The notes: a model not told the origin generated them from the letters alone. DNA of 49,001 nt from a virus (IMGVR_UViG_3300009378_000013:1-49001); one strand, 5' to 3'. Positions 1-49,001 are shown, counted from the first letter of the stretch. Numbers and translations are program-made.

Positions 1-119
1 CATATATCGGTCTTTGCTGACAATTCTGCCTTTATACCGATATTGTTTTTGTCCCGTTTTTGTTGTGACAATTTTCAGGTCTGATGCTTTTGTCCTGCTT
101 TCTGCTACCGCAGCATCAC
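1..119. repeat. Terminal direct repeat, copy 1 (circular contig overlap)
   Basis: Bases 1-119 are identical to 48883-49001. The giant reading frame continues without a stop across the join, which shows that the ends are adjacent in the real molecule. A length of exactly 119 bases equals a k-mer size used by common de Bruijn assemblers. I therefore read it as the overlap left on a circular contig rather than a biological terminal repeat. Confidence 0.9.
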
Positions 120-2286
120 CGATAGGTTGTGGACCACCTTCTTCAACAATTGCTTGCTCTCTCGGCCCACCTCGTCCCTCGATGATCTCACCCTCTTGTC
201 GCGGGCCTTTTCTTGTATCCGCTGCTTCTGGGCGAGCTGGTTCCTCGGCTTTATAACCAGTTTCGCGAATAACTTCCGCTTCGCGTGCAACATGAGCTTT
301 GAAACCGGACATCTCACGGGGAGAAACACCGTGTGGTTCTGACAATTCACTAATACCGGATTCAGACCTACCTCCTTGTCTGCTTTCACTGACTCTTGGT
401 TCAGTCCCCCGCTCAACAACACCTCCGGGCTCAACAATACGCTCCGACTCCATTTGTTCCATAATACCTTGAAGTTCGGAAAGCGCACGTTGATTTTCTC
501 GGATAGCATTTTGATCATTGTTTTCGCGAGCTTGCCCCATCTTTTCGACAATATGTTGTTCGATACTCTGGGCATCTTCCATCGACTCAATTTTCTGATC
601 ACGGAAATTAAATGTCTTCTTTTTCCGATTCGATAAATTTGCACGCCGCGCAAGCAATTCCGCGAAATCGGTTTGATTACTGAGTAAATGACTAGCAATC
701 AAGTAAGCGTCAAGAACATCAACAGCGGTTGCGCCTTCCCCATGCAGTTGATCAATTCGTGCCAACGCCTTCTTATTAACGCCTTTTTTGTCCAGCATTT
801 CACGGAGATGTTTGGTCGCTTTATAATATCCGAAAAGCGTTTCTGTCCCCAAGTTCTCTACAAACGCTTCGATATTACGACCAGCGGCTTGAAGAACAGC
901 AGACTCGTAATTCTCCTTGTCAATCGTTGTATCTTTACTATAGAGACGATCAAACGATTCAATCAACTCTTCCCGAATCTGGACTTTATCACGTCCGTCC
1001 AGAATTGGCGACAACTTGCGAATTGCAAGATCAATTCGTTTCCGCCAATCGGTTCCTGACAGTTTTTTGGGAAGTCCTGTAGCTCTGGATTCTCCAAAAG
1101 CAGCACCACGGAAAAAACCACCCGCAATCATTTCTGGAGTAATATCTGCATCCGGCAGCGGCTGCTCGCGACCCGTCCCCTTTGGGTCAGCTTTCAGCCC
1201 AAGCATCTCATCCCAACCGACCTTGCCCGATTCAATCCCACGCAAAAACTTGTCAAAATCACGCTTCGCGTCACGAATTGGCTTGGTGGTTTCGAGCCAG
1301 TATTTCAAATTCTTAAAGTCTTTTGCGGCATGAAGAGAATGAAATCCTGCACCTAAAATAAAGGATGCGGCAATATCATTCCAATCGGTTTCCATCTTGG
1401 CGGGACGACGTTCAAACGGAAGGGTTTTCCAATAATCTTCTGCAGCATCCTGTTGGTGGATATATGAATCAGTAGCAAAAGAAAGACCGGCGGCGACAGA
1501 ACCAGCCACACCAGCAACAATAGCCCCAGCAGACGGCTTCATATTCATTGCCATCGTCATGCCGAGAGTACGGCCCAGTTCACCACCAACACCAAACATC
1601 ATACCAGAACGAATTGCTTTGGGATCAGGATGACCCGACATGATCGAATGATGAATCATGAAGGTTGATGAATCGCGCAATGCTGAGGATGTCAGCCGTT
1701 GCATAAATCCACCAAATCGGCTAATATCTTTCCCGCGAGAGAATAGTTTTGCTACGGCGGCTCCGCGCATTCCAAGCCCAACTCCGCTAAGAACACCGCC
1801 AGAACCAGCAGAAAGTGCAAGGAAAAGAGGAAGATCAGCAAGCATGGCACCACCACCAGAATATAAATATTCCAGTGTGGTACGAGGATTTGAAATGTCT
1901 TGGTATTTTTCCTGACGATATAAATCTCCAGGCTCACGAATACCAGCATTTTCCATATTGGAAACAAATTCGCCAGCAAAAGAATCGCCAATAGCCGCAG
2001 CCATTTTTGCACCCTGAAACGCTATCGTCTCAAGCTGGCGATTAAACGACTTCCAGAAATATGCACCAAGAGGGGTTTTGGTATCACGGGCAGCATCGTT
2101 AAAGCCAACTTCGTATGGGATCATACGTTCGGCTTCACGCATTAACAGTGGGTACTGTTCGTAAATACCATTCAGCGCACGGATTCCGTCTGTTGCAGAC
2201 GACCCGTTTACACCACTTGCCGCTCGTTCGAGATGGAGGATATTCTCTAACGTATTACGATCAATTTGAACACGCGGTTCTGCCAC
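1..2286 (-). CDS. Giant virion protein, N-terminal 762 codons (continues at 48882)
   Basis: This is the 5' part of a 3481-aa gene cut by the opening of the circle. The start is GTG at 2286-2284, chosen because an AGGGGG Shine-Dalgarno sits about 5 nt upstream and an in-frame TAG (2298-2296, the stop of the preceding gene) blocks any longer frame. I translated it base by base to position 1 without a stop; residue 762 is the ATG at 3-1. Long hydrophobic or Gly/Ala-rich stretches at about residues 135-180 and 247-272 look membrane-active, as in ejected podovirus proteins. Residues about 560-760 are a polar, charged linker rich in R-E-x, E-G-G and S-E repeats. It follows the 574-aa internal protein by 9 bp, the place of T7 gp16. 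It is likely packaged in the capsid and ejected with the DNA; that role is inferred from position and size. Confidence 0.85.
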   Translation of the reverse strand, partial: MAEPRVQIDRNTLENILHLERAASGVNGSSATDGIRALNGIYEQYPLLMREAERMIPYEVGFNDAARDTKTPLGAYFWKSFNRQLETIAFQGAKMAAAIGDSFAGEFVSNMENAGIREPGDLYRQEKYQDISNPRTTLEYLYSGGGAMLADLPLFLALSAGSGGVLSGVGLGMRGAAVAKLFSRGKDISRFGGFMQRLTSSALRDSSTFMIHHSIMSGHPDPKAIRSGMMFGVGGELGRTLGMTMAMNMKPSAGAIVAGVAGSVAAGLSFATDSYIHQQDAAEDYWKTLPFERRPAKMETDWNDIAASFILGAGFHSLHAAKDFKNLKYWLETTKPIRDAKRDFDKFLRGIESGKVGWDEMLGLKADPKGTGREQPLPDADITPEMIAGGFFRGAAFGESRATGLPKKLSGTDWRKRIDLAIRKLSPILDGRDKVQIREELIESFDRLYSKDTTIDKENYESAVLQAAGRNIEAFVENLGTETLFGYYKATKHLREMLDKKGVNKKALARIDQLHGEGATAVDVLDAYLIASHLLSNQTDFAELLARRANLSNRKKKTFNFRDQKIESMEDAQSIEQHIVEKMGQARENNDQNAIRENQRALSELQGIMEQMESERIVEPGGVVERGTEPRVSESRQGGRSESGISELSEPHGVSPREMSGFKAHVAREAEVIRETGYKAEEPARPEAADTRKGPRQEGEIIEGRGGPREQAIVEEGGPQPIGDAAVAESRTKASDLKIVTTKTGQKQYRYKGRIVSKDRYM

Positions 2287-2295
2287 AAAATCCCC

Positions 2296-11755: not shown

Positions 11756-13021
11756 TTATGAGGTCAGACCCGTGATTTCAAAGAAACCGTGGGTCTGTTC
11801 CTGCATGCACTGCAGGCCGACCTCTGTCAGGATTTCGCCTTCAACCGAGTCCTGACCGGTGAACGGAATCGGACGGTACTTCGTGTCACGGTTCCGCATC
11901 GGACGGCGACGGACATTTGCTGGATCAATCCAGAAATTGTAACCAGAGTAATCCGAACTGGACAAGCGCGGGTGAATGACGAGATCAACGGTGCCGAACG
12001 GTGTCAGGAACGACTGCGCGTTGAAGCCCAGCTTCGTGGTACGCGGCTTTTCAATCTGAACCTGCGGTGTGTCTTCGAGGAAATCCTTCAGCTGATAGAA
12101 CGCAGCCACATAGTCAGAGACCATGAGGATCTTCCGCTTTGAACCATACCGCAGGTACTGACGGGCCGTGTAGAAGAAGTTGGTGCCACCGGAACGCAGC
12201 GTGTAATCAGTGTCAGCCGCCGAACCGCTGTTGGTGGAAATGAAGCGGTAGAAACCGCGCGAAGCACGGTGAGCTGTGTACATGGTCGAACCGGAAAAGA
12301 CGTTGTTGTCGTAAGTCTCTGTGCCGGAGTTAAACCATTCACCCATCAGAAGGCCAAAGTCAATGTCCTTCTTGTGAGCAACGGTTGCTTCCATGACACG
12401 GAGCTTCCATTCGTCCATACCGTACCATGCAGCCTGTACAGCAGTACCCGACATTGCAACTTCGGACTTGAAAATCTGAGTGAAGTTGCTTTTCGGAACC
12501 ATCGCCTGCATGTGTGCTTCACCACGACCAGAACCTTCCGGGTGCGCTGTACCGATGATTTCCACAACGGTATCGTTCGCAACAGTGGAAGTTGCATGAC
12601 CGGTAATGCCTTTGAACGTAACATTGTTTCCACTGACACCCGTCACAATCGCAATGACGTTAAATGCTGTGACGTCAGTGTACTGCATCTGAACGATCTG
12701 GTAAGTATGGAACAGATCGCCATCCGACATGGTGAGGGTCGCTTCATTACTGGCCCATGTATCACCACTGGATACAGTGTCGGATCGAGCCAGTGCATCA
12801 CCTTCAAACCACTCGAACTTCGGGTTCACAGTTGTACGAGCCGGAAGCGAGGTCAAGAAGGTGTACCACGGCGTTTGATCCGGTTCAAGCCAGTGAATCA
12901 CCGAATCCAAATCACGAACGCGCCGTTCACTGATCGGACCATAAACACTGTTACCAGCATCTACATAAGTGTTCCACATGTTGGCAGGCGAGCTACCAGA
13001 GCCCGGATTATAAATTGCCAC
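11756..13021 (-). CDS. Major capsid protein, SU10/DUF5309 type, 421 aa
   Basis: HK97-fold capsid protein. The N-terminal part with the sequence V-R-D-L-D-S-V-I-H-W-L-E-P-D-Q-T-P-W-Y-T-F-L resembles the SU10-type major capsid family, as do the length and the R-R-R-P-M-R-N-R-D-T-K region near the C-terminus. GTG start at 13021 with AAGGAG eight bases upstream, in a 52-bp leader that contains a small hairpin. It follows the scaffold-like gene. No long N-terminal delta domain is visible, in keeping with a separate scaffold gene. Confidence 0.85.
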   Translation of the reverse strand: MAIYNPGSGSSPANMWNTYVDAGNSVYGPISERRVRDLDSVIHWLEPDQTPWYTFLTSLPARTTVNPKFEWFEGDALARSDTVSSGDTWASNEATLTMSDGDLFHTYQIVQMQYTDVTAFNVIAIVTGVSGNNVTFKGITGHATSTVANDTVVEIIGTAHPEGSGRGEAHMQAMVPKSNFTQIFKSEVAMSGTAVQAAWYGMDEWKLRVMEATVAHKKDIDFGLLMGEWFNSGTETYDNNVFSGSTMYTAHRASRGFYRFISTNSGSAADTDYTLRSGGTNFFYTARQYLRYGSKRKILMVSDYVAAFYQLKDFLEDTPQVQIEKPRTTKLGFNAQSFLTPFGTVDLVIHPRLSSSDYSGYNFWIDPANVRRRPMRNRDTKYRPIPFTGQDSVEGEILTEVGLQCMQEQTHGFFEITGLTS

Positions 13022-14299: not shown

Positions 14300-14926
14300 C
14301 TATTCGTCCCACTGAATTACTCTTTTTTCAACAGAAATCTTAATGGAATCGCCGTTCGTATAATCAACAAAATCCATTTCTACCCATAAATTTCCAGTTG
14401 TTGGGTACGGCTCATATCGGAGCCGCCCCGCTTTTGCAGTATCGTACAATGATTCCTTCTGCGGCTCAAGCCATAGCCAAACCCATGTGTTCGTGTCCAA
14501 ATCCGCAATAGAGTCCAACTTTTCTACAATCGGATAAGTCCCAATGGTTGGGCTTCCCTTTGTACTATCCCAAAAGAAAGTACGCCGCTGGGAAAACCAT
14601 CCTTCAGAAGAATCATTATCAGACATAAACCATTGCAGATTTCGAAGTGCTTGTGTCCCAGACGAATCTTCATCATCCAAACATTCGAGTTTTAACCGAA
14701 TGGCTGCCTGACAATCATCACGATAAAAATAACCAGCCGGTAATCGTCCCAACTGATACGAGAAAGTGACGATGGAATCTGTTGACAATGCATCTTCCGC
14801 CGTATCACCAACAGCGGGATGATACAAATGTGCCGTGTTTGTCCACCAGTCTTCTGCCTGTGCGGGCAGGGCCATGAGGACTGCGATCAGCAAAACAATC
14901 CACAGTCCAAAGCAGGGCTTTTTCAT
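14300..14926 (-). CDS. Sec-exported protein between portal and scaffold, 208 aa
   Basis: Residues 1-24 are a classical signal peptide: Met-Lys-Lys, a hydrophobic core LWIVLLIAVLMAL, and the cleavage motif A-Q-A before Glu. The mature part (about 184 aa) is acidic, rich in Asp, Ser, Thr and Trp, and probably beta-sheet, with four Cys (one in the signal). No family is recognised. The start overlaps the portal stop as ATGA, so it is firmly part of the head operon. An exported product here is unusual; it may act on the host envelope or cell surface during late infection, or be a moron. Confidence 0.65.
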   Translation of the reverse strand: MKKPCFGLWIVLLIAVLMALPAQAEDWWTNTAHLYHPAVGDTAEDALSTDSIVTFSYQLGRLPAGYFYRDDCQAAIRLKLECLDDEDSSGTQALRNLQWFMSDNDSSEGWFSQRRTFFWDSTKGSPTIGTYPIVEKLDSIADLDTNTWVWLWLEPQKESLYDTAKAGRLRYEPYPTTGNLWVEMDFVDYTNGDSIKISVEKRVIQWDE

Positions 14927-16998
14927 CCTTCAGCTCCTTCTTTTTCAAGTTCCTGTTCTGCTTCTGCTGCCATCAGAGCCAGTTTAGCTCGGAATTTTTC
15001 AAGTTCGACGTTCTTTTCGCCGGTAAGTTGCACTTTCGCGATCATACGATCAGCTTCCATAACCTGCTTCAAGAACTGCCGCAACAGGATATTCTTCTGA
15101 CTGAGATCACGTTCATAAGCCTCAAGCAGGTGCTGCATCTTCTGAACTTCGCCCATCCGCTGTTCTATTTCCTGCGGATTTTCAATCGGAGCCAGCTTCC
15201 GCACTTCCGTACCATCAACAATGCCTTCACGCGCAAGTTCAAGCATGGCAGACAACTTTGCCGTGCGCTGGGTAGGAGCATAAGAACCTCCAACGACTTG
15301 GACATCATACCGACCCTGCGAAACATCCAGCAATTTACCAATAATCCCCGGACCAATTGCAGTCACATCATTCACACGGACCTGACGTTCTTTTGCAACA
15401 CGATCATTCATCATGCGGAATGTTCTGGGCTGACCAGCATAATACTGCTGCATCATCTGGACAGACGCTGAACCAAGCTGGACGAGCATAGCTTCGATTC
15501 GATCAGTGACATCACCAACCTGTTCTCTCGCGTTTTCCAGCTGTGCAAGATACCCGTGCCATGTTTCGGCGGCCCGAGCATCGTGCAGGAATACGTCAGA
15601 CCCTGTTGTTTCACGAAGGAATTTAGCCATTTCGAGGTAAATTCCATAGAACGCCTCGTTCATCGGGGTTGGTGAAAGCGTGATCGGTGGAGTCTGACCA
15701 TTAAATGGTAAATGTGATCCCGGCGCACTGAACATCTGGCGAGCCTTGTCCATCTGGGCATTCTGAGCTCCCTGCAGTGATCCGGTAGGATAAGCAATGC
15801 GTGGGTTTGCGGTTTGCTGGGCATGAAGCATGACAGTTGACATTGCCTTGTTCAAGGTTCTGACAACTTCATGGACAAATTCAGGCTCGCCCATTGGTTG
15901 TGTATTGGACATCGGTTCATAGCCGCCCGTATCCTCATACGAAGTCGAAACCACGGGGCAGGTGTCTGTATATAATTTCATCCACGGGCTAACCTGCAGA
16001 CGGTCCAGAAATACCGATGTCTCGTAAATATTCTGTGACTGAACTTCTATTCGGGCCATTTGTTGCTGTAACAACTGCAATGCCCACGGGATTGTATCCG
16101 GTGGCATATTAAATTCAAAAGTATCATACGGTGTGTGTAAAACATACAGAGGAGCCCATGTTCTACGGAACGCTTGGGACTGGCGTAACATCGAGGCGTT
16201 CTGATTTTCCTGAAACGGGACACCTTCGTGTGTTGTCCAGTTCGATCCCGGTCTGGAAACATCCGGCACAGAGGCCACATACTGGAGTTCCTGTGCCAGA
16301 TGAGGATAATGACGCATTGCCTGTTGTGGTGTTACATACTGGAACAACAGCCAAAGGTCGGTGTCGGTATATAGCGGGTCTTGTGAATATGGATCAGGAA
16401 GAGATTGGTGGGTAGGCCAATGTCGGAACTTCAAATCACCCCTGCCGCGCTCGGCTAAGGCATCCCAATAGGGGACAATCGTGGTTTGCCCAGAACCGAT
16501 AAGCCATTTGACAGCTCGTTGCATCTGCATGTTGCCACGGCTGATATGAAACATCCGCCGCAACAGGAAACCGAATACCGAAGCCATTTGTTCGTCGCCG
16601 CCCTCCATCGCAACAACATCAAATGACGGATTATTTGCGGTATAATACCGAACAAGAGAACGAACGGCCTGACGCAAGTAATTCATCTTGATCGGGGTCA
16701 TCTTCTGGCGTTTCATTGCGGCGATTTCAGCAGCCGTATAATGCCCGCCCCAGATCATTTCCATACCACGAAGAGCTCGATCATGAAACGAACGAAACGC
16801 CGTCAGGCGCTCTTCAATTTCATGATGAACATCACTGCCATTGATGTTTGATTTGGAAGCGGCATCAATGCTTAACGTGTGCGGAGGCGGATCGAGAGCA
16901 CCAAGAAGACCGTCCCGACTCGAAGGAAGAAGTTCTTCATCCTCAATCTGGGCCATCTGCCCTATGCCTATTCCCTGTTCAAAGCCAGCCTGAATCAT
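14923..16998 (-). CDS. Portal protein, 691 aa
   Basis: Follows TerL with a 4-bp ATGA overlap. Residues about 55-130 contain the helical entry region typical of podovirus portals (R-A-L-R-G-M-E-M-I-W-G-G-H-Y-T, then N-Y-L-R-Q-A-V-R-S-L-V-R-Y-Y-T-A-N-N-P), and about 440-640 form the stem/crown part with long helices. The Met/Gln-rich C-terminus is a charged coiled coil. Length matches podovirus portals (about 600-750 aa). It makes the dodecameric DNA gate that binds TerL during packaging. Confidence 0.85.
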   Translation of the reverse strand: MIQAGFEQGIGIGQMAQIEDEELLPSSRDGLLGALDPPPHTLSIDAASKSNINGSDVHHEIEERLTAFRSFHDRALRGMEMIWGGHYTAAEIAAMKRQKMTPIKMNYLRQAVRSLVRYYTANNPSFDVVAMEGGDEQMASVFGFLLRRMFHISRGNMQMQRAVKWLIGSGQTTIVPYWDALAERGRGDLKFRHWPTHQSLPDPYSQDPLYTDTDLWLLFQYVTPQQAMRHYPHLAQELQYVASVPDVSRPGSNWTTHEGVPFQENQNASMLRQSQAFRRTWAPLYVLHTPYDTFEFNMPPDTIPWALQLLQQQMARIEVQSQNIYETSVFLDRLQVSPWMKLYTDTCPVVSTSYEDTGGYEPMSNTQPMGEPEFVHEVVRTLNKAMSTVMLHAQQTANPRIAYPTGSLQGAQNAQMDKARQMFSAPGSHLPFNGQTPPITLSPTPMNEAFYGIYLEMAKFLRETTGSDVFLHDARAAETWHGYLAQLENAREQVGDVTDRIEAMLVQLGSASVQMMQQYYAGQPRTFRMMNDRVAKERQVRVNDVTAIGPGIIGKLLDVSQGRYDVQVVGGSYAPTQRTAKLSAMLELAREGIVDGTEVRKLAPIENPQEIEQRMGEVQKMQHLLEAYERDLSQKNILLRQFLKQVMEADRMIAKVQLTGEKNVELEKFRAKLALMAAEAEQELEKEGAEG

Positions 16999-18899
16999 AC
17001 CGTTATCCAGCTTGAGTCATCTTGAACTTCGACTTCCTCGTCATCATAAAAACCTTCAGCATTCAGTGTCGGAGGTCGCGGCGGAGGCATCGCTTCCCTG
17101 ATTGCCTTTTCTCCCGCGTCCAACCTGTCCCGTCTTGCTGGCGAAGGCCAATCGTCCATATCCTTCAGGTAATTTGTCAAAGTAATATGGACGTAGACGT
17201 TCCCTTTCCTCAATGGTCCTAATATACGATCAATTCGTGCGTCTTTGCCAATACTCTCAGCATCTGCGATAATATTAAAGGGCGGTCGATTTTGTGTAGC
17301 CCGGTTTCTCTGAATCCCAGCCTGTACCAGCCCTTGCGCCCCATTTGTTTCTGAACGCCATAAAATTGGGCGGAACTGGGAGTCCGCTCTATCCAGACCC
17401 ATTTCAATTTGACCGTAATCCATTGGACCGGATGTGTCATGAAAATAGTAGTAGTTTTCATCAGGATCGACCGCAACCAAAATCATCGCCGTATAATCAG
17501 ATTCGTCCTTATTTGTGAATCCCAAATCAAGTCCGGCATAGATGTGAACCGGGACAGTAATCTGATCAAATTGATTGCGCGGCTCGATCGCCCCCGGCAA
17601 AGCGTTGTTGTGGCGAAGATAGCGTTTAATCGTCATCCACGGTTCCATGCCGCCGTTTCGCCAAAAGAGATTTCCGTCAAACAACCGGACATGAGGCTTC
17701 ATCCGGCGTTTTTCATCAGACATTGGTTCGTTGTAATACTCTTGCCGGAAGCCTTCCCAGTCACCAGCAGCACGAGCTTCTATGCCTTTTCGGATGATCC
17801 ATTCTTTTGAATACCGCTTGCCCCAGATAGGCTTACCGTTCGTATCTTCGATCTGAAGGAACATCACTTCCCAGAAGTTGGGCTGTCCTGTGCTCAACAT
17901 CTGCTGGTAAATGTTGTATGAACGGTTCAGGAAGGAGTCGACATGAACGATTGTGCCGGTAAGAACCAGCTGCCCACCCTGCTTTTCGATGGCTGGCATG
18001 ACCTTGCGACGGATGAACCGCCTGACTTTTTCCCGCAGGTTCTCCGTATTGGTGTTTTCCTCACTCTCGAAATCGTCAAGAAACACAAGGTCAGGACGAA
18101 ACGACCGGAACTTACGACCTCGCGGCTTCTGACCCCAGCCGATTGCCTCCAGCATGATGCCATTTTGGGTCACAATCCGGGTCGTTGACCATTTGTTTTC
18201 CTCGACTTTCCGACTGCGGGTTCGACGCAGTTTTTTCAAAGCCCCGCCGGAAAGGAGATGGATACGCGGGTTTGTCAACAACTCGTGGGAAACGGCATCA
18301 AGCCACAATGTCGCCTGTTCTCTGGATTCGGAGAACGATTGGATGTATCGCTTCTTTCGGAAAGTAACACATTGGAGGGTGAAAATTTGCTCGACGGTAG
18401 TTTTAGCGTGTTCGCGAGGCCATATGATACAAAGGTGTTCCGTTCCGCAAGCAAGACGGTCAAGGGCTTCTATGTGGAACTGGGGGACACCGAAACGGGG
18501 GCCAACAAGTCCTTCGTGTCCCCCTTCGTCAAGGGCGGGATGCTTATTGTCCGGCAACATATTGCCGTAGCGGTCCCGTGGTGTGAGAGCAAAAACTTCA
18601 AAAGCTACCGGATCATCCTTCAGCCAACCGAGGAGGTACTTCCATTCATCAGGCCGATTCTCCCGCACCTCCCTCAACGCCTTGTCGTTCATCGTCAGAA
18701 GCGGGTGGTTTAGGTACTCGGCTTCGTTCGACAGTCTCGCGATTTTCAAGTGCCAAGTCGACAATAGCGTCCGAGATGTGAGCCCCGCGTTGCTTGGTTG
18801 ATCTTGCAACACCGACTCCACCGGATTCGGGCCAACTTTCGGGCTCAGATCCGGCATCCCCGGTCGCACCTTGAAGTTGATCAGTTTCGTATCCGACAT
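16995..18899 (-). CDS. terL: Terminase large subunit (TerL), 634 aa
   Basis: DNA-packaging motor ATPase and nuclease. Walker A variant WPREHAKTT is at about 160-168 and Walker B DLVFLDDFE at about 270-278. The RNase-H-like nuclease domain starts with A-G-L-D-L-G-F-T (Asp458), followed by I-I-A-D-A-E-S (about 550) and D-D-W-P-S-P. The ATG at 18899 has only a weak GGTG in front. The next in-frame ATG in the helical region, 18692, has no Shine-Dalgarno. With the longer start the gene overlaps TerS by 251 bp in another frame. The product stops with a 4-bp overlap into the portal gene. Confidence 0.9.
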   Translation of the reverse strand: MSDTKLINFKVRPGMPDLSPKVGPNPVESVLQDQPSNAGLTSRTLLSTWHLKIARLSNEAEYLNHPLLTMNDKALREVRENRPDEWKYLLGWLKDDPVAFEVFALTPRDRYGNMLPDNKHPALDEGGHEGLVGPRFGVPQFHIEALDRLACGTEHLCIIWPREHAKTTVEQIFTLQCVTFRKKRYIQSFSESREQATLWLDAVSHELLTNPRIHLLSGGALKKLRRTRSRKVEENKWSTTRIVTQNGIMLEAIGWGQKPRGRKFRSFRPDLVFLDDFESEENTNTENLREKVRRFIRRKVMPAIEKQGGQLVLTGTIVHVDSFLNRSYNIYQQMLSTGQPNFWEVMFLQIEDTNGKPIWGKRYSKEWIIRKGIEARAAGDWEGFRQEYYNEPMSDEKRRMKPHVRLFDGNLFWRNGGMEPWMTIKRYLRHNNALPGAIEPRNQFDQITVPVHIYAGLDLGFTNKDESDYTAMILVAVDPDENYYYFHDTSGPMDYGQIEMGLDRADSQFRPILWRSETNGAQGLVQAGIQRNRATQNRPPFNIIADAESIGKDARIDRILGPLRKGNVYVHITLTNYLKDMDDWPSPARRDRLDAGEKAIREAMPPPRPPTLNAEGFYDDEEVEVQDDSSWITV

Positions 18900-36495: not shown

Positions 36496-37373
36496 TTGCT
36501 GAATTCATTCAGAAACTGGCGGATCACGTCCGCCCAACCCACATTCAGGCCGAAGAACGTCTTTTCCTGCATCCAGATTTCAAGGAAAAGACATATCCGC
36601 CACGTCAGCGACGACACCGTTTCAATGACACACCATCTTTGATCAATTGGGCAAAGATCAATGCTGATGGCAACAAGTCAGTGTTCATTGATGTTCAATT
36701 TACCGGTCACGGTGATGACCCAGCACGATGTCAACTTGCTGTCATGACCAACGAAGACTCAACTCCTCGTAATGCTGAATGGGGAACTGTCAAGCTGCGG
36801 AAGAATCCGATCTTTGATGAAATTTTTGGATACAAAACGCAGAGAGATTTCGCAGACATGCTTCTGCGTCATGGTCATCTCTTCACTGAAACCAAAAAGA
36901 TTCTTCTGGGCAAGAAAGCTGAAAATGCCCAGATGGGATTCAGTCCGGGCGAACCATTTGATTTGTCCCTGATGCTTCGTAAAGTGACCATCTGTGATGC
37001 TTCCAGCACCAGCAAGGTGTTGAACGAGTATTCGGATGAAAACAACTTGTCCATCAAGTATACGGTCGACGACGAACCCAACCGTACAGAATTCCCACGT
37101 TTATGGGTTCTTGATTGTCCGTATTACGAAGGAATGGAACCGATCCCGATCCCGGTGTATCTGTCCTATTCCACTGATGGTGCAACAAACGTCACATTCA
37201 AGCTCGAATTCTTCAAAGAGCTTGACCTTGTTCGCAATATCGGAACTGAAATTCGCGAACACGTTGAAGAAATCCTTGATGACGACAAGGATGATTGGAA
37301 CATTTACATGGGTTGGCCTGATGGGTCGCTTAACCCGAAGGTTAAAGTTGACCAATCGGAGCCTGCCTTTTGA
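36492..37373 (+). CDS. DUF2303-like protein, 293 aa
   Basis: Resembles the DUF2303 (YfdQ) phage family: R-R-H-R-F-N-D-T-P-S-L-I-N-W-A-K near residues 40-56, then S-V-F-I-D-V-Q-F and a mixed alpha/beta body. ATG 36492 overlaps the previous stop as ATGA and has TTGGAGG upstream. The family is common beside phage recombination genes with unknown action. Assignment is from pattern, moderately sure. Confidence 0.6.
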   Translation: MIAEFIQKLADHVRPTHIQAEERLFLHPDFKEKTYPPRQRRHRFNDTPSLINWAKINADGNKSVFIDVQFTGHGDDPARCQLAVMTNEDSTPRNAEWGTVKLRKNPIFDEIFGYKTQRDFADMLLRHGHLFTETKKILLGKKAENAQMGFSPGEPFDLSLMLRKVTICDASSTSKVLNEYSDENNLSIKYTVDDEPNRTEFPRLWVLDCPYYEGMEPIPIPVYLSYSTDGATNVTFKLEFFKELDLVRNIGTEIREHVEEILDDDKDDWNIYMGWPDGSLNPKVKVDQSEPAF

Positions 37374-38763: not shown

Positions 38764-38909
38764 ACGAAATCTCGCTGTTTTGGAAGATTATTATCGGTGT
38801 TGGCGGATACATTGGTTTTTGTTTCATATTCGCTTGGCTTTTTGGTCGCTTTATTCGTTGGGCAGAAAATCGCCCAATGCCACCTTCAGAAGGAGATGAA
38901 TATTCATGA
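38760..38909 (+). CDS. Small single-pass membrane protein, 49 aa
   Basis: MNEISLFWK, then one hydrophobic segment (about 10-29, IIIGVGGYIGFCFIFAWLFG), then a basic and Pro-rich end. ATG 38760 overlaps the RusA-like stop as ATGA; the end overlaps the polytopic membrane gene as ATGA, so the three are coupled. It may be an accessory subunit of the large membrane protein that follows. Confidence 0.6.
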   Translation: MNEISLFWKIIIGVGGYIGFCFIFAWLFGRFIRWAENRPMPPSEGDEYS

Positions 38910-40258: not shown

Positions 40259-40736
40259 CAGCACCAGAATCGTTTATCAAACAAAAGGCAACGGTTTCCA
40301 GATTGGAAAAGCGTCCAACACCGCCACCGCACGATTTAATGTTGTTGGTAGCAAGGGATACAGCAACCGTTTTCTTCGAGAACGAGTTACCGTACAGGTG
40401 CGAAGCAATAGATATCATCCTGACAAGGATGAAGTTATTCTTCGTATTGAAAACAGCGATGGCAATCCCAAAAATATTGTGAAGCTATCTGCACACAATG
40501 ATTGGGGAACCGAAGAGGAACTGACTCTTACGAAGAAGGTGGCTGAGTTGGAACAACAGCTTGAAGACGAAAAGCTCGGCCCGCTTTCCAGAACCCGTAC
40601 AACAGAGATGTTGACCGCAAAACGGGAAGCGATATCCAGCTTTCTCCACCAGTTACAAAGTAGAAACATCGGTCTTGATTATGATGCAATCAATTTTGTA
40701 ACAGCGGCGTTCGATCAAGTGATCAACGACCTATAA
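40224..40736 (+). CDS. Last plus-strand gene, 170 aa
   Basis: Beta-rich N-terminal half (IVYQTKGNGFQIGKASNTATARFNVV; RVTVQVRSNRYHPDKDEVILRIE), coiled-coil centre (L-T-K-K-V-A-E-L-E-Q-Q-L-E-D-E-K-L) and a helical end. ATG 40224 follows AGGAG and overlaps the membrane gene by 35 bp. Its stop lies 14 bp inside the end of the giant gene on the other strand. No family recognised. Confidence 0.6.
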   Translation: MEPLVDLKRISDSTRIVYQTKGNGFQIGKASNTATARFNVVGSKGYSNRFLRERVTVQVRSNRYHPDKDEVILRIENSDGNPKNIVKLSAHNDWGTEEELTLTKKVAELEQQLEDEKLGPLSRTRTTEMLTAKREAISSFLHQLQSRNIGLDYDAINFVTAAFDQVINDL

Positions 40737-43700
40737 GGTCTTCCATACGATCTTTGAGGTCTTCCAACTGTTCCCAATTCCCACGCATTTGCCATTCAGA
40801 CTGATTAACACCAGCCCAACGAAGAGCCGCCCTGCCAAGTGACATATTTGCACTACCTACTTGGTACAGATCAGGGAGAATACCTGACAGGTGCGGTTCT
40901 TCGTTTTCATCCATCCACGTTCGGGCATAAGAACCGCCGAACATGTTATTCGCTGAATTGAAGGCAAGACGGCTGTATTCACCGTTGCTAAGAGTCAGAA
41001 GAATATCAAGAGCGGTCTGAAGCCCCGGTCCTCCGAACGATCCAGCGACCAAGTAACCAATCCCTTCTTCTGTTGACATTGGTCCACGACCAAATGCACC
41101 ACGCTCTTCCCTGTCCCGTTCATCTTCAAGCATGTAGGTAGCAATATCAAACGCGGTCTGGAATTCAGGATTCGGCATCAGACGAATCATTGATTCTGCA
41201 CCAAGAAGGATCGCCGCCCCCGCTACCATACCATGTGAAAGATAAAAACGGAACAGTCTTGATGCTGGATCACGCCCGTCAACAATCCCCTTGATTATTT
41301 TTGCGCCACTGTAACGCTGTCCCGGCAACGAGCCACGAATCCCGATCTTGGAAACATCAGAAGCCAGCTCCTTGTGATAGCGAGTCAAAAGCCTGAGCTG
41401 GGTTGCATGATATTTCTGGAACGCAAACAGAATTGGTCCCATTGGAGAACGAAGTACATCGTTGGTAAAGAAGGAACGATATTCACCTTGAACTAATTGA
41501 TTCGTTCTCATCGTTGCACGTTGAGCCATTCTGTCTGCTTCAACATGCAGAAATTCCGGGTTTGAATTACCGAATCGTCTTCGCAGATTCAAATATGCCT
41601 GATTGTAAACACGGCGATAAGAACCAAGCGCAATAGCACGAGTCTGCTTTTCCGACCATGTAAATCCTTTACCCAGAACTTCTGACGCACGACGAGTTTT
41701 TTCGGCTGTCCAATTAAGCAGCTTGTTGTCCCACCGCTTATAGGAATCCGATCCAACACCACCTCGATCACCACCAACATGATCCCAGAGGAGATCATTC
41801 ATACGGCGTTGCGATTCTGACAACATCACAGGACGATCAAAACCACCAGCAATCTGTTCTGCAGACGCAGCCTGTGTAGAGAACATATCAATCCTGTTTC
41901 GGATGACACGGCCCTCTGCTGTCTGCATTTCACGAAGACCGGTGTACATTGCTTTGATGCCCTGATCAACACCGTACATGGACATACCGCCAACAATGTT
42001 ACGAATAGGCGAAGCAATGTTAATTGCACCCAGCTTGGTCGTGAACTGTACGTTACCAAAGATTTGCGCGATCAATTCAATGTTCGAATCGTGAGGACGG
42101 GTAATATGATCCTCAAGCATCTTTGCTCGTTCAACCAGATATGTTAAACGATTAGCCCTGTGAGTTCCGACACCAGCACCACGTAACTTGGAAAGTTCTG
42201 CAGCAACCTCAGAATAGAATCCACCAAACTCTTTAGCAAAGATATTGTGTCGCCAGACACGATGATTCATCTCGAAATAACCAGCAATATCCTTCACAGG
42301 ATCAACAGAATCACGACCGATAACCCTTACATCATAACCATCAGCATCGGTTCTGCGAAGCATACTGGCTGAAATTTGCCCACCGCGACGAGCACCTTCT
42401 ACACCAGCCTGAGCCCGTGCAATATCCCATTTACCCATCGGATAGTATCGACGACGATGACCAAAACCAAGACCTTTGATTGAACCATAAAAGACGGTTC
42501 CCCCAGCACGAAGTTTGCTGACAGCACCGTTGTACTTTTTAATATCGGCCTGCATTAAAGCATTCCAATATGCCCACTCTTCCGATCCTTGCTTGTTTGC
42601 ATTACGAGCCACCTCGAAATAACGGCGTTGATGATGATGTTCGTTTCGAAGTGAAGCCTCCGCAGACTCGATCAGATAACCTTCCATCCGGCGATTGCCG
42701 TTTGAATCTTTACCCTCCCGCAAAAAGTCCTGCAAGAATCCAGCATGTTTCCCGCGAAGAGCTCCTTCATGCGAAACCCACAGTTCCGGGTTTTTAACTT
42801 CAGGAATTCCAACAAGAGCATCTTTCAAATCTTTGCCACCCTGAATCATTCGAACGGCGGCATACATTTCAGGGCGCAACGCAAACACCTGTGTGTCCCA
42901 CTTTTCTTCCAATGCTTTTGTTAAAGACTCCCGAACTCGATATTTTGCTGCTTCTCCTTTTGCGGCTTTATATCGCTTTTTCCATGTATTAACTTCTGAC
43001 TCGATCAATAACGGTTTATCTGGAAGCATTAAGCCGGGACGGCTGTCATACTTTTCACGTATAACACTGTATGCAGGTTCGTCCCGCAGGCCGATCATCA
43101 ACAGGTCTTGGAAATCCATTAAACGCATGGGTCTCTGGTCAACGGGTACGGTGTCCGGGTTTCGGTTTTGTAGTTTCCCCGCGAGATCGTGACTCCATGA
43201 CCAGAGACCCCTGCCTTCAAGTGTTTTCGCAAAGAATACACCGGCTTCGGGATCTTCTTGCTCAAGTCGAGAGAACAACTTTCTGAACTGCTGTAACTTC
43301 ATCCCCGAACGTGCCAAGAATTCCGCCTCACGTCCATGAGCCGTATTGATACCATCAAAGAATTTCAGCGCCTCGACTTCCATTCCGAAAATAGTATCCA
43401 TGAATTGGAGTTTTGCCATTAATGGTGATGCTGGACGATCTTCTGTCATTCGACTGGTCTTATCATTCCACTTCTGTCGAAGACGAAGAACTTCTTGTTC
43501 TGTTATTGGTCGAGGAAGATCCATCGACCACGCATCAATCTTATCCTGTGCCACATAGTAAAGCCATGCTTCGCCATCACCAATATCGGGATGACCAAGA
43601 AACTTTCTGACATCACTACGAAGAGCATCCAACTGAGTATCAGCTCTACGGTTTTCTCCCACAAACAGAGGAACCACATCCTGACCAACATCAAATATTT

Positions 43701-46700
43701 CATTTAAGTCTTTTCGTATCGAATCCCTGTGTGGCGACTTCGCCGCAACACTCCCGTGCGCTGTTACATGATCGGGTTGGCCTCCGAATATAGTCTTTGC
43801 CGCATCAAACAACACACCGAAGTTCACAGAACCTCGACGCATTTTACCGTACCGATTCAACTTTTCTCGTGCTGCGGCGATCCCATCTTCCATTTGTCGT
43901 TGGCGAAGAATTTCAAGAATCTGCTTTCTGTTCCCACGACCAAGAAAATGTAGAAGACTGCCAAAGTCTTCAGAATATTTAGCTTGTGTGACTAACTGAC
44001 CTTGCGCTTCCGGCAGATAGTGCTGATTAAACTTTTCGCCATAACGATTCTGTATTGCGTCTGTCAATGCCGCTGCTGGGAAAGTATCATCATAAAGGAA
44101 AAGCATGTCAGCCATCATGCGTTCAAATCTTCCCGTAGCTGGATCAGAAGACACGACCTGCATCATGTCTTGGACATTCCGGCTGACACCATTCACAATA
44201 CGAGATTTACCCGTGTTAGGATCAGTATCTACATACGAATCCCAACGGGTCTTAAAGCCTTTCGCTTCAGCAACCTCATGATCACGCATCAGATCATGAA
44301 CATCTTCGAGAATTTTCCAATGCTTGTTACCAAACAACCGCTCCCAACGGGCCTGCCCCTCTTCTGTAAACCTGAACAGTCTTTGACTGCCTTCATGACG
44401 TTTAACCAACCCCGATTGCCATGAATTAAAGTTCTTCAGCGACCACCCTTCTGGCTTAAACCTGCGTCGTCTGAACCAACTGTTCATAATCTGACGGTTT
44501 TCCCGAAACAGTGCTTCACGAGCTTTTTTATGTGTTTCAAAAGCCGCGTTACGACTGAACATCAATGGAGATGCGATCTCAACTTCGGCAAACCTTCTAC
44601 GGTTCTTTCCTGAGCCACGCTCAACCGTCCGAACCATTGGTTCAGCAAGCAGGCCGGTTTCACGCATCTTCAAGATCAACCGCTCGCGAGCAGACATCCC
44701 GCCCCTGCCAAGAACTTCAAGACGTTCAACAATACCGCCCATCAGATTTAGCGCATGGGAAAGCTCGATTCCGTTGGCCCTGCCTGCATTTTTCAATGCA
44801 CCAGAATTGCGAATACCAGCAGGAAGCAGGAATTGCTCCGGTTCTCCCTTTTTCCGTTTCAAAAGAGTTGGCGAAGTGGGCTGTTTTGCTATATCGACAC
44901 CAATCATCCCGCGAATCTCAGCAGAATCTGGAGAATAATACCACGACAAGAAATCAGCAGCAGCTCGTTCTGGGCCTTGACCCGTAATTCTGGTCACAAA
45001 GTTGAAAAACTCAAGCCGGTTGCCAATTTGCTTTTGTATGCCTGCCCACACCTTCGGTGTCTTTTGGATCTCTGGAATAGCTGTAAGCGGTCTCCACTTC
45101 CCGGCTTTTGTTTGCGCCTCAAACAATGACATCTCAAACAGAAGTGGATCATATCCTAAACGAGACATAGCGCGATGCTTCGCATTGTCGGTTGCAATGG
45201 AGGTCATGTACGCAGCCAGTTCGTCCATATCCTTGTTATCACGAGCTCGAACCCGTGTTTCAAGTTCACCAATCTTGATCTTTGGCTGAAGACGATTATC
45301 TGCAATCACCCGTCGCTGTGCCATCAACGATACAATCTGTCCGACAGCCTTTTGCCCATAGTGATATTCAGATGCTGTCTGTGCAATTGCATCACCATCA
45401 AACAACATACGACGAGCTTGTCCACGGATTGTTTCAATAAAACCTTGTTTCCGGTTTACAAATCCGGGTGACACCCCAGAAGACGGTTCATCTACCAGTT
45501 CATAAACAACATTTCCGTTCCGATCTCTTAGCAAAGAGTGATCATTGTTGAAAACAGGAACCTGCAGACGGCCCTTACCATCTGTAATTGACACCGGCGT
45601 AGACGGTTTATTGAAATATTCAAGGGTAGGACTTTTTGGATCAACACCAAGAGAATAATGTGCTGTATCAGCATCATAGTCAGCATCAAGACGGTTCTTC
45701 ACCTGTCTTGAATTCAACATTAGAACATTCCCACGACCTTCCGGCAACACACCGGCAACACGAACAGAGAAAAGGCCATCTTTACCACGAGTCGGGAAGC
45801 GACTAACCGCCATATGTAACTCAATACCAGCTGCTGCTAAGTCAACACCTTTTCCCGCGACCAACTGCTGATGCATTGCCCCATTATCGTGGAAAACATC
45901 ATCAAGAACTCGAACGTCGAAAGCCCGCTGCTTGTTTGCTGGATCTGCGTAGAACTTCTTGAGCACATTGTATGGGACATAAGCCTCCCCCGGCTCAACA
46001 AGTCCAAAAACATCAGGAACGATTGTTGAACGCTGTGCTCCCGGCATCGCAGCCTTCAGAATTCCATTAACATAAGCGCGACGAACAACATATGGCATGG
46101 CAAGCAGGCTTACAGCAGGCGACTGAATAGGCACACCGTTTGAAAGCAAGCGATTCAGGTCATTATAACTGGTCATGAATGCACCAACACCACGGGCTTC
46201 AGAATCACGCAAGAGAATATTCAATTCGTTCGCGAATTCTTTCGGGTTAGCTGTGGCTAGATCTATCATCAAATCAACATGATGATCAACCGCTGGGCCT
46301 AAAAGATCATCGACATAATGTTTTCCAATCCGCCCCGGTGCGAAATTCATGGCCTGAAAACCAAGACGACCGACTGCCTCTGAACCAGTTTGAACTGCCA
46401 CTCGCTTTACATCACGAGGCCGGAACCGGATTTTGTCAAGTGACCCGATTTTTTGAGCTGACCGAGCTACAATTATCTGTTCTCGTGCTGTAAAGTTTCC
46501 TTCAGCATCAAACAGGTCTGGAGCAATTTCCCGCATTCTTTGCTTTGCGGCTTCACCACGAGCGCCGTACATGTTCAGATCTGGAAAAGCAGTGATAACC
46601 GTCTTGAGCATGACTGGATGATTCTCCAACACACGCGCAACCTGCTCGATTGGCAAAGGGTTGCCCCTTCCGTCTACATCCAGCATCCCTGTAGATTTAC

Positions 46701-49001
46701 GATAACGAGTCCGCAATTCTGTCTCAGTGAATCCGGGCAATTTAGCATCCCGAATATCACCCACATTCATCGGGCGACCAAAGAATTCCAGCTTCGCCGC
46801 TTTTGCATCCAGAGGCGCACCGGTTGAAAACGAAACCTCATCAATCCAAGCTGATGGAGCCCAGCCGTGCGAATCAACTCGAACATTGTCTGGATCAAGT
46901 CCCGTCAACAACTGAGTGATCGCATCAATCTGATTGTCGTCAATCACCCTGACTTCAATCGGATTCTTTTTGAAGTGTTCATGCCCTTCAAGCGAAACCG
47001 CATCACGGATAATCGCTTTACCACGCTTGGAAGCAACGTCAAGTCCCTTGAATTTTCCGCCGGGGCCGAGTTCTGCTTCCGCAGCTTCCATGCGCGTTTT
47101 GATCTTAACCAGTTCTGCGTGTTGTGACTTCTCTGTTTTTCCTGTCAATCTGGCATCAAGCCATTCTTTTGCATCATTAATTGGCTTTTGTCCCTGCCAA
47201 CGCGCTTCCTGTTGTCCGGGCCAAAGCTCACGAAGAACCTGTTCATATAACTTCTGGACAGGCAGATCAGTAACGGCTTTTCTTGGACGAAGACCAACCA
47301 TTGTAGGCGAAACTTCAAAAGGCCAGTGCATAACAAGACCGGCCCGTTCAAGGGCTGCATCAACCATCATGATCTTTTCGGACGTATCCAACTTATCAAA
47401 AGAACCCGCCTGATCATGTGGATTGAAAATCATCCTTCCATCTTCTGTCTTTTCGTGCCGTCCTAAAAAGTTCAGATAAACAACGCCACCTATTTTCCCA
47501 TCATCTACCAAATCATCAAGAACAGTTCGTTTGTAATAATCTGGCAGTTTTTTCCCAGAACCATCTACATTTTCTGTTGGTCGTAATTTCAATTGACCGT
47601 CTGCCGAATAAACATCTGTGATGTCACGTTCGACTGCACTTCTGAGATTATTGTAAATCGCTCGCAGGGCGGTATGCGTGTCATGACCAAGAACAAATTC
47701 GCGCTTCAAATCCTCTCGCAACCTTCCATTCTTGGATTCGATATAGTCGCGAATTTCTCCGGCCTTCAAAGCACGAGGATCAACACCATAAACCGAACTC
47801 ATGATAGCCATAATCCATTGGTCTGGCGATAGTTCTTTTGCCATCATGATCAAATGCTGATCCGCTATCTGAAAACCAAGTTCGGGATTTTGAGTACGAT
47901 TCATAATATTGATGATGTCATCAACAGATCGGATACGGCTGAGGATAAAGTTCTCGTCGGTCGCAACATTATTATTACGTTCATAAACAACACCACCAAA
48001 GACCTTCTTTTGCGCTTCTTCCCCCGGAAGTTCTGACACCCCCTGACGGGTCTGTTCTTCTTTTGCTGCCGTCAAGATGCGTTCGACAGCATCTTCATAC
48101 TCAGTCTGAACACCTCGTTTGCGCTCAACCTCAACAAGCGATTCGGCAACACGGCGTACCTCATCTGTGCTGAGTTCAGAAACCTTCTTGGGAATTCCTT
48201 CCTCAACAATAGCATCACCTATCGGATCAGGACCGTCCTGTTCACGGATTGCCCCCTCTTCACGAATGATGCCTTCTTCTGAAACAACCTTACCTTCAGG
48301 CTGTTCTCTAACGATACCGGCTTCATCAGGGAGCCCCTCTTTAATACCGAAGAACTCTTCAATCTGAGCCAACAGCTCGGGTGTCTTATCTGTACGCGTC
48401 GTTCCTTTCGGCGTTTTCAGAAGAGCTTCACGGGTAGGAATAACAATATGAATATTAGGAGACGCCTCCATCGTTTGTTTCAACAACGGAAGAATCACCT
48501 TTGGATCACCTTGACCATGTCCAAGACCCATCAGGGGCAGATAAAACTGTACGTCCGGTTCAGATCGAGCACGATTGATCAGGCGGCGCAAACCATCCTT
48601 CATCAAATCAATATTGGCTTCATCACGCCAATGCTTTTTAACGTAAATTGGCATGACGTGAGGATTAGCCATGTAATCCTTAAACATCTTCGCCAAGCCA
48701 GCACCGTGGACATGCCCTTGATTGATTGGGACAACCACAACGCCTTGTCCATGAACAACAGCGGTCCCGAAAATATCCATCAGATCGCCACGAACTACCG
48801 GTTCTGTTGGAAGCTCCCCCGGCGGCATTTTCGTAGTACCAAGCTCGCCCTTACGTTCACCGGAAACTTTGCGAGACAATTCCATATATCGGTCTTTGCT
48901 GACAATTCTGCCTTTATACCGATATTGTTTTTGTCCCGTTTTTGTTGTGACAATTTTCAGGTCTGATGCTTTTGTCCTGCTTTCTGCTACCGCAGCATCA
49001 C
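40723..49001 (-). CDS. Giant virion protein, C-terminal part: macro domain and RNA-polymerase-like motif
   Basis: Continuation of the 3481-aa gene; residues 762-3481 are coded by 48885-40723. Residues about 790-916 resemble a DarG/TARG1-type macro domain: G-D-L, then NQGHVHGAGLAKMF, then K-H-W-R and a G-L-x-x-L helix, then FYLPLMGLGHGQGD. Such domains bind ADP-ribose and remove it from DNA or protein. A Pro/Glu-rich linker follows. Residues 1790-1834 resemble the catalytic double-psi barrel of RNA polymerase beta': R-F-P-T at 1790, then LDADYDADTAHYSL with aspartates 1828, 1830, 1832 and 1834 (45687-45667). An upstream lysine (about 1705, in ILKAAMPG) could belong to the partner barrel. The last third is helical, with a hydrophobic stretch near 3304-3330. 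N4-type phages also carry a ~3500-aa virion polymerase, but of the single-subunit T7 type. Ends with TGA at 40723, overlapping the convergent gene by 14 bp. Confidence 0.85.
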   Translation of the reverse strand, partial: DAAVAESRTKASDLKIVTTKTGQKQYRYKGRIVSKDRYMELSRKVSGERKGELGTTKMPPGELPTEPVVRGDLMDIFGTAVVHGQGVVVVPINQGHVHGAGLAKMFKDYMANPHVMPIYVKKHWRDEANIDLMKDGLRRLINRARSEPDVQFYLPLMGLGHGQGDPKVILPLLKQTMEASPNIHIVIPTREALLKTPKGTTRTDKTPELLAQIEEFFGIKEGLPDEAGIVREQPEGKVVSEEGIIREEGAIREQDGPDPIGDAIVEEGIPKKVSELSTDEVRRVAESLVEVERKRGVQTEYEDAVERILTAAKEEQTRQGVSELPGEEAQKKVFGGVVYERNNNVATDENFILSRIRSVDDIINIMNRTQNPELGFQIADQHLIMMAKELSPDQWIMAIMSSVYGVDPRALKAGEIRDYIESKNGRLREDLKREFVLGHDTHTALRAIYNNLRSAVERDITDVYSADGQLKLRPTENVDGSGKKLPDYYKRTVLDDLVDDGKIGGVVYLNFLGRHEKTEDGRMIFNPHDQAGSFDKLDTSEKIMMVDAALERAGLVMHWPFEVSPTMVGLRPRKAVTDLPVQKLYEQVLRELWPGQQEARWQGQKPINDAKEWLDARLTGKTEKSQHAELVKIKTRMEAAEAELGPGGKFKGLDVASKRGKAIIRDAVSLEGHEHFKKNPIEVRVIDDNQIDAITQLLTGLDPDNVRVDSHGWAPSAWIDEVSFSTGAPLDAKAAKLEFFGRPMNVGDIRDAKLPGFTETELRTRYRKSTGMLDVDGRGNPLPIEQVARVLENHPVMLKTVITAFPDLNMYGARGEAAKQRMREIAPDLFDAEGNFTAREQIIVARSAQKIGSLDKIRFRPRDVKRVAVQTGSEAVGRLGFQAMNFAPGRIGKHYVDDLLGPAVDHHVDLMIDLATANPKEFANELNILLRDSEARGVGAFMTSYNDLNRLLSNGVPIQSPAVSLLAMPYVVRRAYVNGILKAAMPGAQRSTIVPDVFGLVEPGEAYVPYNVLKKFYADPANKQRAFDVRVLDDVFHDNGAMHQQLVAGKGVDLAAAGIELHMAVSRFPTRGKDGLFSVRVAGVLPEGRGNVLMLNSRQVKNRLDADYDADTAHYSLGVDPKSPTLEYFNKPSTPVSITDGKGRLQVPVFNNDHSLLRDRNGNVVYELVDEPSSGVSPGFVNRKQGFIETIRGQARRMLFDGDAIAQTASEYHYGQKAVGQIVSLMAQRRVIADNRLQPKIKIGELETRVRARDNKDMDELAAYMTSIATDNAKHRAMSRLGYDPLLFEMSLFEAQTKAGKWRPLTAIPEIQKTPKVWAGIQKQIGNRLEFFNFVTRITGQGPERAAADFLSWYYSPDSAEIRGMIGVDIAKQPTSPTLLKRKKGEPEQFLLPAGIRNSGALKNAGRANGIELSHALNLMGGIVERLEVLGRGGMSARERLILKMRETGLLAEPMVRTVERGSGKNRRRFAEVEIASPLMFSRNAAFETHKKAREALFRENRQIMNSWFRRRRFKPEGWSLKNFNSWQSGLVKRHEGSQRLFRFTEEGQARWERLFGNKHWKILEDVHDLMRDHEVAEAKGFKTRWDSYVDTDPNTGKSRIVNGVSRNVQDMMQVVSSDPATGRFERMMADMLFLYDDTFPAAALTDAIQNRYGEKFNQHYLPEAQGQLVTQAKYSEDFGSLLHFLGRGNRKQILEILRQRQMEDGIAAAREKLNRYGKMRRGSVNFGVLFDAAKTIFGGQPDHVTAHGSVAAKSPHRDSIRKDLNEIFDVGQDVVPLFVGENRRADTQLDALRSDVRKFLGHPDIGDGEAWLYYVAQDKIDAWSMDLPRPITEQEVLRLRQKWNDKTSRMTEDRPASPLMAKLQFMDTIFGMEVEALKFFDGINTAHGREAEFLARSGMKLQQFRKLFSRLEQEDPEAGVFFAKTLEGRGLWSWSHDLAGKLQNRNPDTVPVDQRPMRLMDFQDLLMIGLRDEPAYSVIREKYDSRPGLMLPDKPLLIESEVNTWKKRYKAAKGEAAKYRVRESLTKALEEKWDTQVFALRPEMYAAVRMIQGGKDLKDALVGIPEVKNPELWVSHEGALRGKHAGFLQDFLREGKDSNGNRRMEGYLIESAEASLRNEHHHQRRYFEVARNANKQGSEEWAYWNALMQADIKKYNGAVSKLRAGGTVFYGSIKGLGFGHRRRYYPMGKWDIARAQAGVEGARRGGQISASMLRRTDADGYDVRVIGRDSVDPVKDIAGYFEMNHRVWRHNIFAKEFGGFYSEVAAELSKLRGAGVGTHRANRLTYLVERAKMLEDHITRPHDSNIELIAQIFGNVQFTTKLGAINIASPIRNIVGGMSMYGVDQGIKAMYTGLREMQTAEGRVIRNRIDMFSTQAASAEQIAGGFDRPVMLSESQRRMNDLLWDHVGGDRGGVGSDSYKRWDNKLLNWTAEKTRRASEVLGKGFTWSEKQTRAIALGSYRRVYNQAYLNLRRRFGNSNPEFLHVEADRMAQRATMRTNQLVQGEYRSFFTNDVLRSPMGPILFAFQKYHATQLRLLTRYHKELASDVSKIGIRGSLPGQRYSGAKIIKGIVDGRDPASRLFRFYLSHGMVAGAAILLGAESMIRLMPNPEFQTAFDIATYMLEDERDREERGAFGRGPMSTEEGIGYLVAGSFGGPGLQTALDILLTLSNGEYSRLAFNSANNMFGGSYARTWMDENEEPHLSGILPDLYQVGSANMSLGRAALRWAGVNQSEWQMRGNWEQLEDLKDRMEDLIGR
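40728..40740. terminator. Small hairpin at the convergent gene ends
   Basis: GACCT-ATA-AGGTC forms a 5-bp palindromic stem over the plus-strand stop codon, within the overlap of the two convergent genes; a second small palindrome (GATCA-AG-TGATC) lies just before it. There is no U-run, so as a terminator it would be weak. Confidence 0.25.
48883..49001. repeat. Terminal direct repeat, copy 2 (circular contig overlap)
   Basis: Second copy of the 119-bp overlap. Removing one copy gives a 48,882-bp circle. The repeat lies entirely inside the coding sequence of the giant virion protein, so the contig end is not an intergenic cos or pac site. Confidence 0.9.

Follow-up and report, generated by a model that had tools for sequence, protein, structure and literature searches.

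A DarG/TARG1-type macro domain within a giant phage protein that carries an RNA polymerase signature: a possible virion-borne eraser of ADP-ribosylation

Introduction

Can a bacteriophage deliver together with its DNA an enzyme that reverses ADP-ribosylation before any of its genes is expressed? This question is raised by IMGVR_UViG_3300009378_000013:1-49001, a viral DNA of 49,001 bp analysed here at its full length (the window), in which an initial annotation made from the sequence alone had placed a DarG/TARG1-like macro domain inside an ejected virion protein and had suggested that this domain could protect the incoming genome from DarT, a transferase of bacterial DarTG defence systems. The macro domain is embedded in a 3481-residue protein that also bears an RNA polymerase (RNAP) signature motif. 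The proposed role of the domain, for which a probability of about 0.48 is estimated, is to remove ADP-ribose from nucleic acid at genome entry, countering DarT-like defences as part of a packaged and ejected giant protein. The macro class itself is known; what is new is its occurrence in a virion-type giant protein.

Identification of the macro domain

The macro motifs quoted in the initial annotation are present in frame and in order on the minus strand at 48346-48798, a region that encodes residues 791-941 of the giant protein and fits the numbering given there (790-916). The best PHROG match of this region is to PHROG_335 (E=1.4e-12), and it is also matched by the NCBIfam antitoxin_DarG (E=6e-8) and PADLOC DarG (E=3e-6) models, which makes PHROG_335 and DarG its nearest curated families by sequence. 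The top matches listed by phmmer against the PDB are the DarG of Thermus aquaticus (TaqDarG, E=4e-4), that of Mycobacterium tuberculosis (MtbDarG, 0.012) and Thermosipho DarTG (0.08), while Pfam Macro is not detected in the macro region. With a profile that leaves out the window sequence and combines 14 macro sequences of DarG proteins and phages, the giant protein scores 56.7 bits (E=1e-16), as compared with 9.2 bits for the best of 5000 shuffles of the region; because these 14 sequences were themselves gathered by similarity to the window, the curated libraries constitute the independent test.

AlphaFold, run on an alignment of 25 sequences, returned a macro fold with a predicted local distance difference test (pLDDT) score of 85.4 and a predicted template modelling (pTM) score of 0.81. 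The closest PDB structures to this model are those of DarG (Foldseek E 9e-7; Z 13.6 and 13.5) followed by TARG1 (Z 12.9); the two lie within one Z unit, and are thus effectively tied, and both stand above other macro domains. Sequence, profile and predicted fold thus agree in assigning residues ~788-912 to the DarG/TARG1 (ALC1-like) class, as originally proposed, with the catalytic lysine and the glycine loops retained.

Conservation of the active site

The active site was mapped on that of TaqDarG (PMC5179494), and conservation was assessed in alignment columns from 96 relatives. All six columns invariant across these relatives are unchanged in the window domain: N816, G822, G824, A826, K844 and G885. 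N816 corresponds to N22 of TaqDarG, K844 to its catalytic lysine K80 (K84 in TARG1), and G881, G883 and G885 to G117, G119 and G121. The histidine and tryptophan of the DarG KHW signature, H846 and W847 (H82 and W83 in TaqDarG), are shared with 81 and 90 of the 96 relatives, respectively. Mutational analysis of TaqDarG found K80A to be inactive, N22A and G119E to have impaired function, and H82A and W83A to have little effect (PMC5179494). Because the pocket residues that are essential in these mutants are kept, the domain is predicted to be active.

The giant protein and its gene

The two ends of the window share an exact 119-bp repeat (1-119 and 48883-49001), and the genome therefore closes as a circular or circularly permuted map of 48,882 bp. 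A length of 119 is a common assembler k-mer, so that the repeat was probably produced as an overlap during assembly instead of being a true terminal repeat of the phage. Owing to this identity of the ends, the giant gene spans the junction and forms a single frame without stop codons, from 2286 to 1 and then from 48882 to 40723, encoding 3481 residues (Table 1). Even without closing the circle, an uninterrupted frame of 2758 residues inside the window joins the macro region to ~1800 further residues that reach the RNAP region and beyond.

The macro domain is flanked on both sides by linkers, the first of which is of low complexity. A motif of the first linker recurs in the second, with a self-alignment score of 80 against a maximum of 74 in 300 shuffles, a difference that makes this repeat marginal evidence for a cassette. 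The possibility that the macro domain was acquired recently was considered and is unsupported, since the GC content at third codon positions (GC3) is 0.44 as compared with 0.40, and the codon score of the macro region is normal, its codon usage fitting the rest of the gene. Hydrophobic segments lie close to both termini of the protein. A motif search of the giant protein found neither HExxH nor Walker A motifs, and a Pfam scan of all its parts found no Macro, polyvalent-associated or RNAP domain.

The giant gene is the final gene of a minus-strand structural operon that encodes the terminase large subunit (TerL), the portal and the major capsid protein. TerL gives matches of ~24% to many unrelated phages, and the helicase loader of this phage had no match in the homology search. 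Elsewhere in the genome, the structural region contains a gene for a 1424-residue protein without any Pfam or PHROG match (5517-9791, minus strand), and the early region contains genes with DUF6798 (38906-40258) and DUF2303 (36492-37373) domains on the plus strand.

Table 1. Coordinates in the window of the giant gene, its parts and the neighbouring structural genes
Feature	Residues	Window coordinates	Strand	Remarks
Giant gene, first part	1-762	1..2286	-	GTG start at 2286, GGGGG shortly upstream
Giant gene, second part	763-3481	40723..48882	-	Frame open across the circular junction via the 119-bp repeat
Hydrophobic segment	147-173	1768-1848	-	
Hydrophobic segment	252-273	1468..1533	-	
Low-complexity linker before macro domain, rich in E/G/P/R	600-762	1..489	-	
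End of low-complexity linker	763-787	48808..48882	-	
Macro domain core	788-912	48433..48807	-	AlphaFold model closest to DarG and TARG1
N816	816	48721..48723	-	TaqDarG N22; invariant in relatives
GxG loop (HGAGLA)	822-824	48697..48705	-	Invariant glycines
K844	844	48637..48639	-	TaqDarG K80, TARG1 K84; invariant in relatives
H846-W847	846-847	48628..48633	-	KHW signature
Phosphate-binding loop (GLGHG)	881-885	48514..48528	-	TaqDarG G117-G121
Linker after macro domain	942-1055	48004..48345	-	Repeats GPxPIGDAxVxE of the first linker
RFPTRGK...DADYDAD	1790-1835	45664..45801	-	Putative two-barrel RNAP motif (DPBB-A)
EYHYGQKAVG	1934-1943	45340..45369	-	Aligned by MAFFT with a conserved crAss-like RNAP motif
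Hydrophobic segment	3313-3331	41176-41232	-	
Major capsid protein		11756..13021	-	PHROG_1328; operon of giant gene
TerL and portal		14923..18899	-	PHROG_38, PHROG_156; upstream in the operon of the giant gene

RNA polymerase signature and virion delivery

Residues 1790-1835 of the giant protein (RFPTRGKDGLFSVRVAGVLPEGRGNVLMLNSRQVKNRLDADYDADT) are aligned by tblastn (E=0.02) to RIPTQGMSSMFAIQVADILPETTGDLIIVPREFTAQTGSDFDVDK, a segment of crAss-like giant proteins, and contain the double-psi beta-barrel A (DPBB-A) motif of two-barrel RNAPs. A crAss profile gives 10.4 bits on this motif, as compared with at most 1.2 bits in 1000 shuffles and at most 5.7 bits in 13,704 other open reading frames (ORFs), and hhalign of the region gives a P of 1e-4 and a probability of 57. 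With E=1e-26, the same crAss-like proteins also match 6VR4, a phage RNA polymerase of solved structure, namely gp66 of the crAss-like phage phi14:2 (PMC10770324). A later segment, EYHYGQKAVG, not detected by the crAss profile, aligns with a conserved motif that sits ~100-150 residues after the catalytic motif in crAss-like RNAPs. On these motifs, the giant protein probably carries a two-barrel RNA polymerase, and is a candidate virion RNAP outside the crAss-like phages. In phage P23-45, too, the polymerase first came to notice through a DxDxD motif, within a giant protein of the virion (PMC10770324).

The position of the giant gene at the end of the structural operon, the hydrophobic segments and the virion-RNAP-like motif support delivery with the DNA, and packaging of the giant protein in the virion, followed by its ejection into the host cell, is the most likely case. 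The placement of the domain in an ejected virion protein by the initial annotation is therefore plausible.

Relatives and distribution

Alignment-based scans returned three sets of viral loci (10, 80 and 49) and a single genome locus, and the loci covered, ~150 in total, come from phages, plasmids, IMG/VR and a bacterial genome. The matching ORFs are standalone proteins or DarG with an adjoining DarT, and, with the exception of the giant ORF of the window itself, none exceeds 508 residues. Single-protein queries of phage, viral-contig and genome-contig collections found no close relative of the giant protein, which is weak evidence, since these scans depend on exact patterns of 8 residues and near copies may have been omitted. 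The top match of the macro domain among viral predicted structures (BFVD) is A0A6J5QNL6 (E 3e-8, 28% identity), a giant protein of an uncultured Caudovirales phage that is annotated as 'DNA 3'-5' helicase' and holds a macro-like part. Macro domains in giant phage proteins are therefore rare among the loci covered, and perhaps not unique to this phage. In the phylogenetic tree, the window domain falls outside the clade that holds all DarGs (support of 97 in the Shimodaira-Hasegawa-like approximate likelihood ratio test, SH-aLRT) and nearest to standalone phage proteins, a placement that is uncertain because of long branches.

Several of these loci are of interest in their own right. A darT-darG pair is present on many IMG/VR viral contigs (DarT match at 27 of the first 106 loci), and DarTG thus seems common on viral or provirus contigs. 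On a Thermus thermophilus plasmid (1240-2248 of the locus) a macro protein is encoded close to a gene for KptA, an RNA 2'-phosphotransferase, a pairing expected for the processing of ADP-ribose-1''-phosphate. In Vibrio phage eugene 12A10 (2755-6165 of the locus) a standalone macro protein lies near the genes for ribose-phosphate pyrophosphokinase and nicotinamide phosphoribosyltransferase (NAMPT), which form an NAD-metabolism cluster.

Proposed role of the macro domain

In the proposed mechanism, the trimmed and intact-looking ALC1-like macro domain would be held on flexible linkers inside the multidomain, RNAP-signature protein, which would be packaged and would then enter the cell together with the DNA, in the manner of crAss-like and N4 virion polymerases and the so-called polyvalent proteins. 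There, K844 would be used to cleave ADP-ribose from nucleic acid, the main target being thymidines on exposed single strands modified by host DarT. Entry, early transcription and the first round of replication would in this way be unblocked before any phage gene is expressed. DarT toxicity can be rescued by the macro domain of DarG on its own (PMC5179494), and thymidine de-ADP-ribosylation unifies the ALC1-like class, being performed by DarG, TARG1 and SCO6735 (PMC9411070). The most specific form of this proposal, in which a minimal, five-stranded DarG-type enzyme within an ejected virion RNAP protein erases DarT marks ahead of phage gene expression, is advanced tentatively and with more doubt than confidence.

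Several observations weigh against the proposed role. Three TaqDarG residues are replaced in the window domain (K29 by A823, T79 by V843 and N120 by H884), and A826 and K844 are separated by 18 residues, compared with 37-56 in all 96 relatives. The ~20-40 residues missing here, which comprise helix alpha2 and the edge strand beta3, are present in 96 of 96 relatives, and the model accordingly has five strands and lacks both elements, a feature absent from the initial annotation. The macro strand order is 1-5-6-2-4-3 (PMC9503650), which puts beta3 at the edge, and its loss therefore need not break the core; if active, the trimmed fold of this 125-residue domain would show how little of a macro domain catalysis needs. 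The window domain moreover forms a very long branch on the tree (5.2 substitutions per site), the alignment behind its AlphaFold model held DarG-like proteins, so that its fold and its sequence do not count as independent matches, and AlphaFold of the RNAP region gave a pLDDT of 33 with the barrels not modelled, so that the barrel claim rests on motifs. Finally, small ADP-ribose derivatives are, as argued in a literature survey, the substrates of most phage macro domains (PMC9503650).

This survey also leads to the main rival explanation, in which the early-delivered domain is an active hydrolase or a sponge for small ADP-ribose derivatives (ADP-ribose-1''-phosphate, O-acetyl-ADP-ribose or the cyclic ADP-ribose signals of Thoeris-like systems) that blunts NAD-based signalling instead of cleaning DNA. 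The gene neighbourhood of the nearest named phage relative, that of Vibrio phage eugene described above, fits such a function. However, the best curated and structural matches are to DarG, a member of the class that shares the reversal of thymidine ADP-ribosylation (PMC9411070), and the window domain retains the catalytic lysine together with the KHW signature; this explanation is considered unlikely. The fusion to an RNAP-motif protein could instead mean that ADP-ribose is removed from proteins, e.g., the virion RNAP itself, or from RNA that host transferases like CmdT have modified, shielding the ejected machinery or the first transcripts. Both proteins and RNA phosphate ends are indeed substrates of TARG1 (PMC11833690), and ADP-ribosylation of mRNA is a known anti-phage defence (PMC11618068). 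Yet the DarG macro domain, whose KHW features are present here, is directed to DNA, and no RNA- or protein-specific feature was found in the domain; this reading is improbable.

A slim chance likewise attaches to the domain being degenerate, and functioning as an ADP-ribose binder only or, within a polyvalent protein that changes rapidly, as a structural spacer. The loss of alpha2 and beta3, the long branch and the low identity to all relatives would all be expected of such a domain, but the six invariant columns and the H and W of the signature are unchanged, and decay is not expected to spare only the pocket. Removal of ADP-ribose from nucleic acid at genome entry is thus the reading preferred here.

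Comparison with known systems

The closest characterised counterparts of the window domain are the DarG proteins of T. aquaticus and M. tuberculosis (PDB 5m3e, 5m31 and 5m3i), with which it shares the fold and the pocket (N22, K80, H82-W83 and G117/G119/G121 in TaqDarG numbering), and from which it differs in residing in a 3481-residue phage protein, in the missing alpha2/beta3 and in the replacement of K29, T79 and N120. The NCBIfam DarG model aligns over its positions 78-168 of 338 only, with 32 bits against a cutoff of 250, a linker follows the macro domain where no DarT-binding C-terminal domain was found, and a DarT profile search of all window ORFs gave no match. These results speak against a DarG antitoxin, and the domain is judged from its sequence not to be one. 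The standalone proteins of PHROG_335 ('phosphatase'; Bacillus phage SP-15, Vibrio phage eugene and others) provide the best PHROG match and the nearest tree branches, and some members have the VK-HW form of the lysine motif; unlike the embedded window domain, they are free proteins of 145-240 residues, whose genes lie among non-structural ones at the loci read. TARG1/OARD1 shares the fold and the catalytic lysine, whereas its Lys/Asp dyad is not recognisable in the window domain, as judged from the alignment to DarG, and SCO6735 differs in having Gln at the lysine position.

Like the polyvalent proteins (Iyer et al., 2017; PMC5512222), the window protein is a giant phage polypeptide with several unrelated early-acting domains, here a macro domain and an RNAP motif. 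ADP-ribosyltransferase domains fused to N4-like virion RNAPs constitute a mirror-image precedent (PMC5512222); a text search of the same article found ADP-ribosyltransferases in polyvalent proteins and no macro domain, and Macro domains of DNA viruses are typically standalone (PMC9503650). Two-barrel virion RNAPs, e.g., phi14:2 gp66 and Thermus phage P23-45 gp96, share with the window protein the RxPT...LPE...DxDxD motif and the nature of a giant structural-region protein, and their fusion to large proteins is known (PMC10770324). The window protein differs from them in that no motif other than DPBB-A and a single later one can be recognised, and neither gp66 nor gp96 has a reported macro domain; a PHROG_335 search of 8 crAss-like records gave no match. 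A0A6J5QNL6 resembles the window protein in having a macro match inside a giant phage protein, and differs in its annotation as a helicase.

Phage-encoded counter-defence against DarTG is exemplified by AdfA and AdfB of phages RB69 and ICP1 (PMC11481870), which, unlike a virion-borne hydrolase, are made after infection and are expected to bind DarT. These proteins and polymerase mutations, the means by which phages are known to overcome DarTG, come into play after the onset of phage gene expression or replication, and an enzyme that enters together with the genome would be at work from the first minute. If the most specific form of the proposal is correct, the window protein would represent the first virion-delivered, pre-expression countermeasure to an ADP-ribosylation defence and could point to a module common to giant phage proteins, and the activities of polyvalent proteins would extend from ADP-ribosyltransferases to the reversal of their modification.

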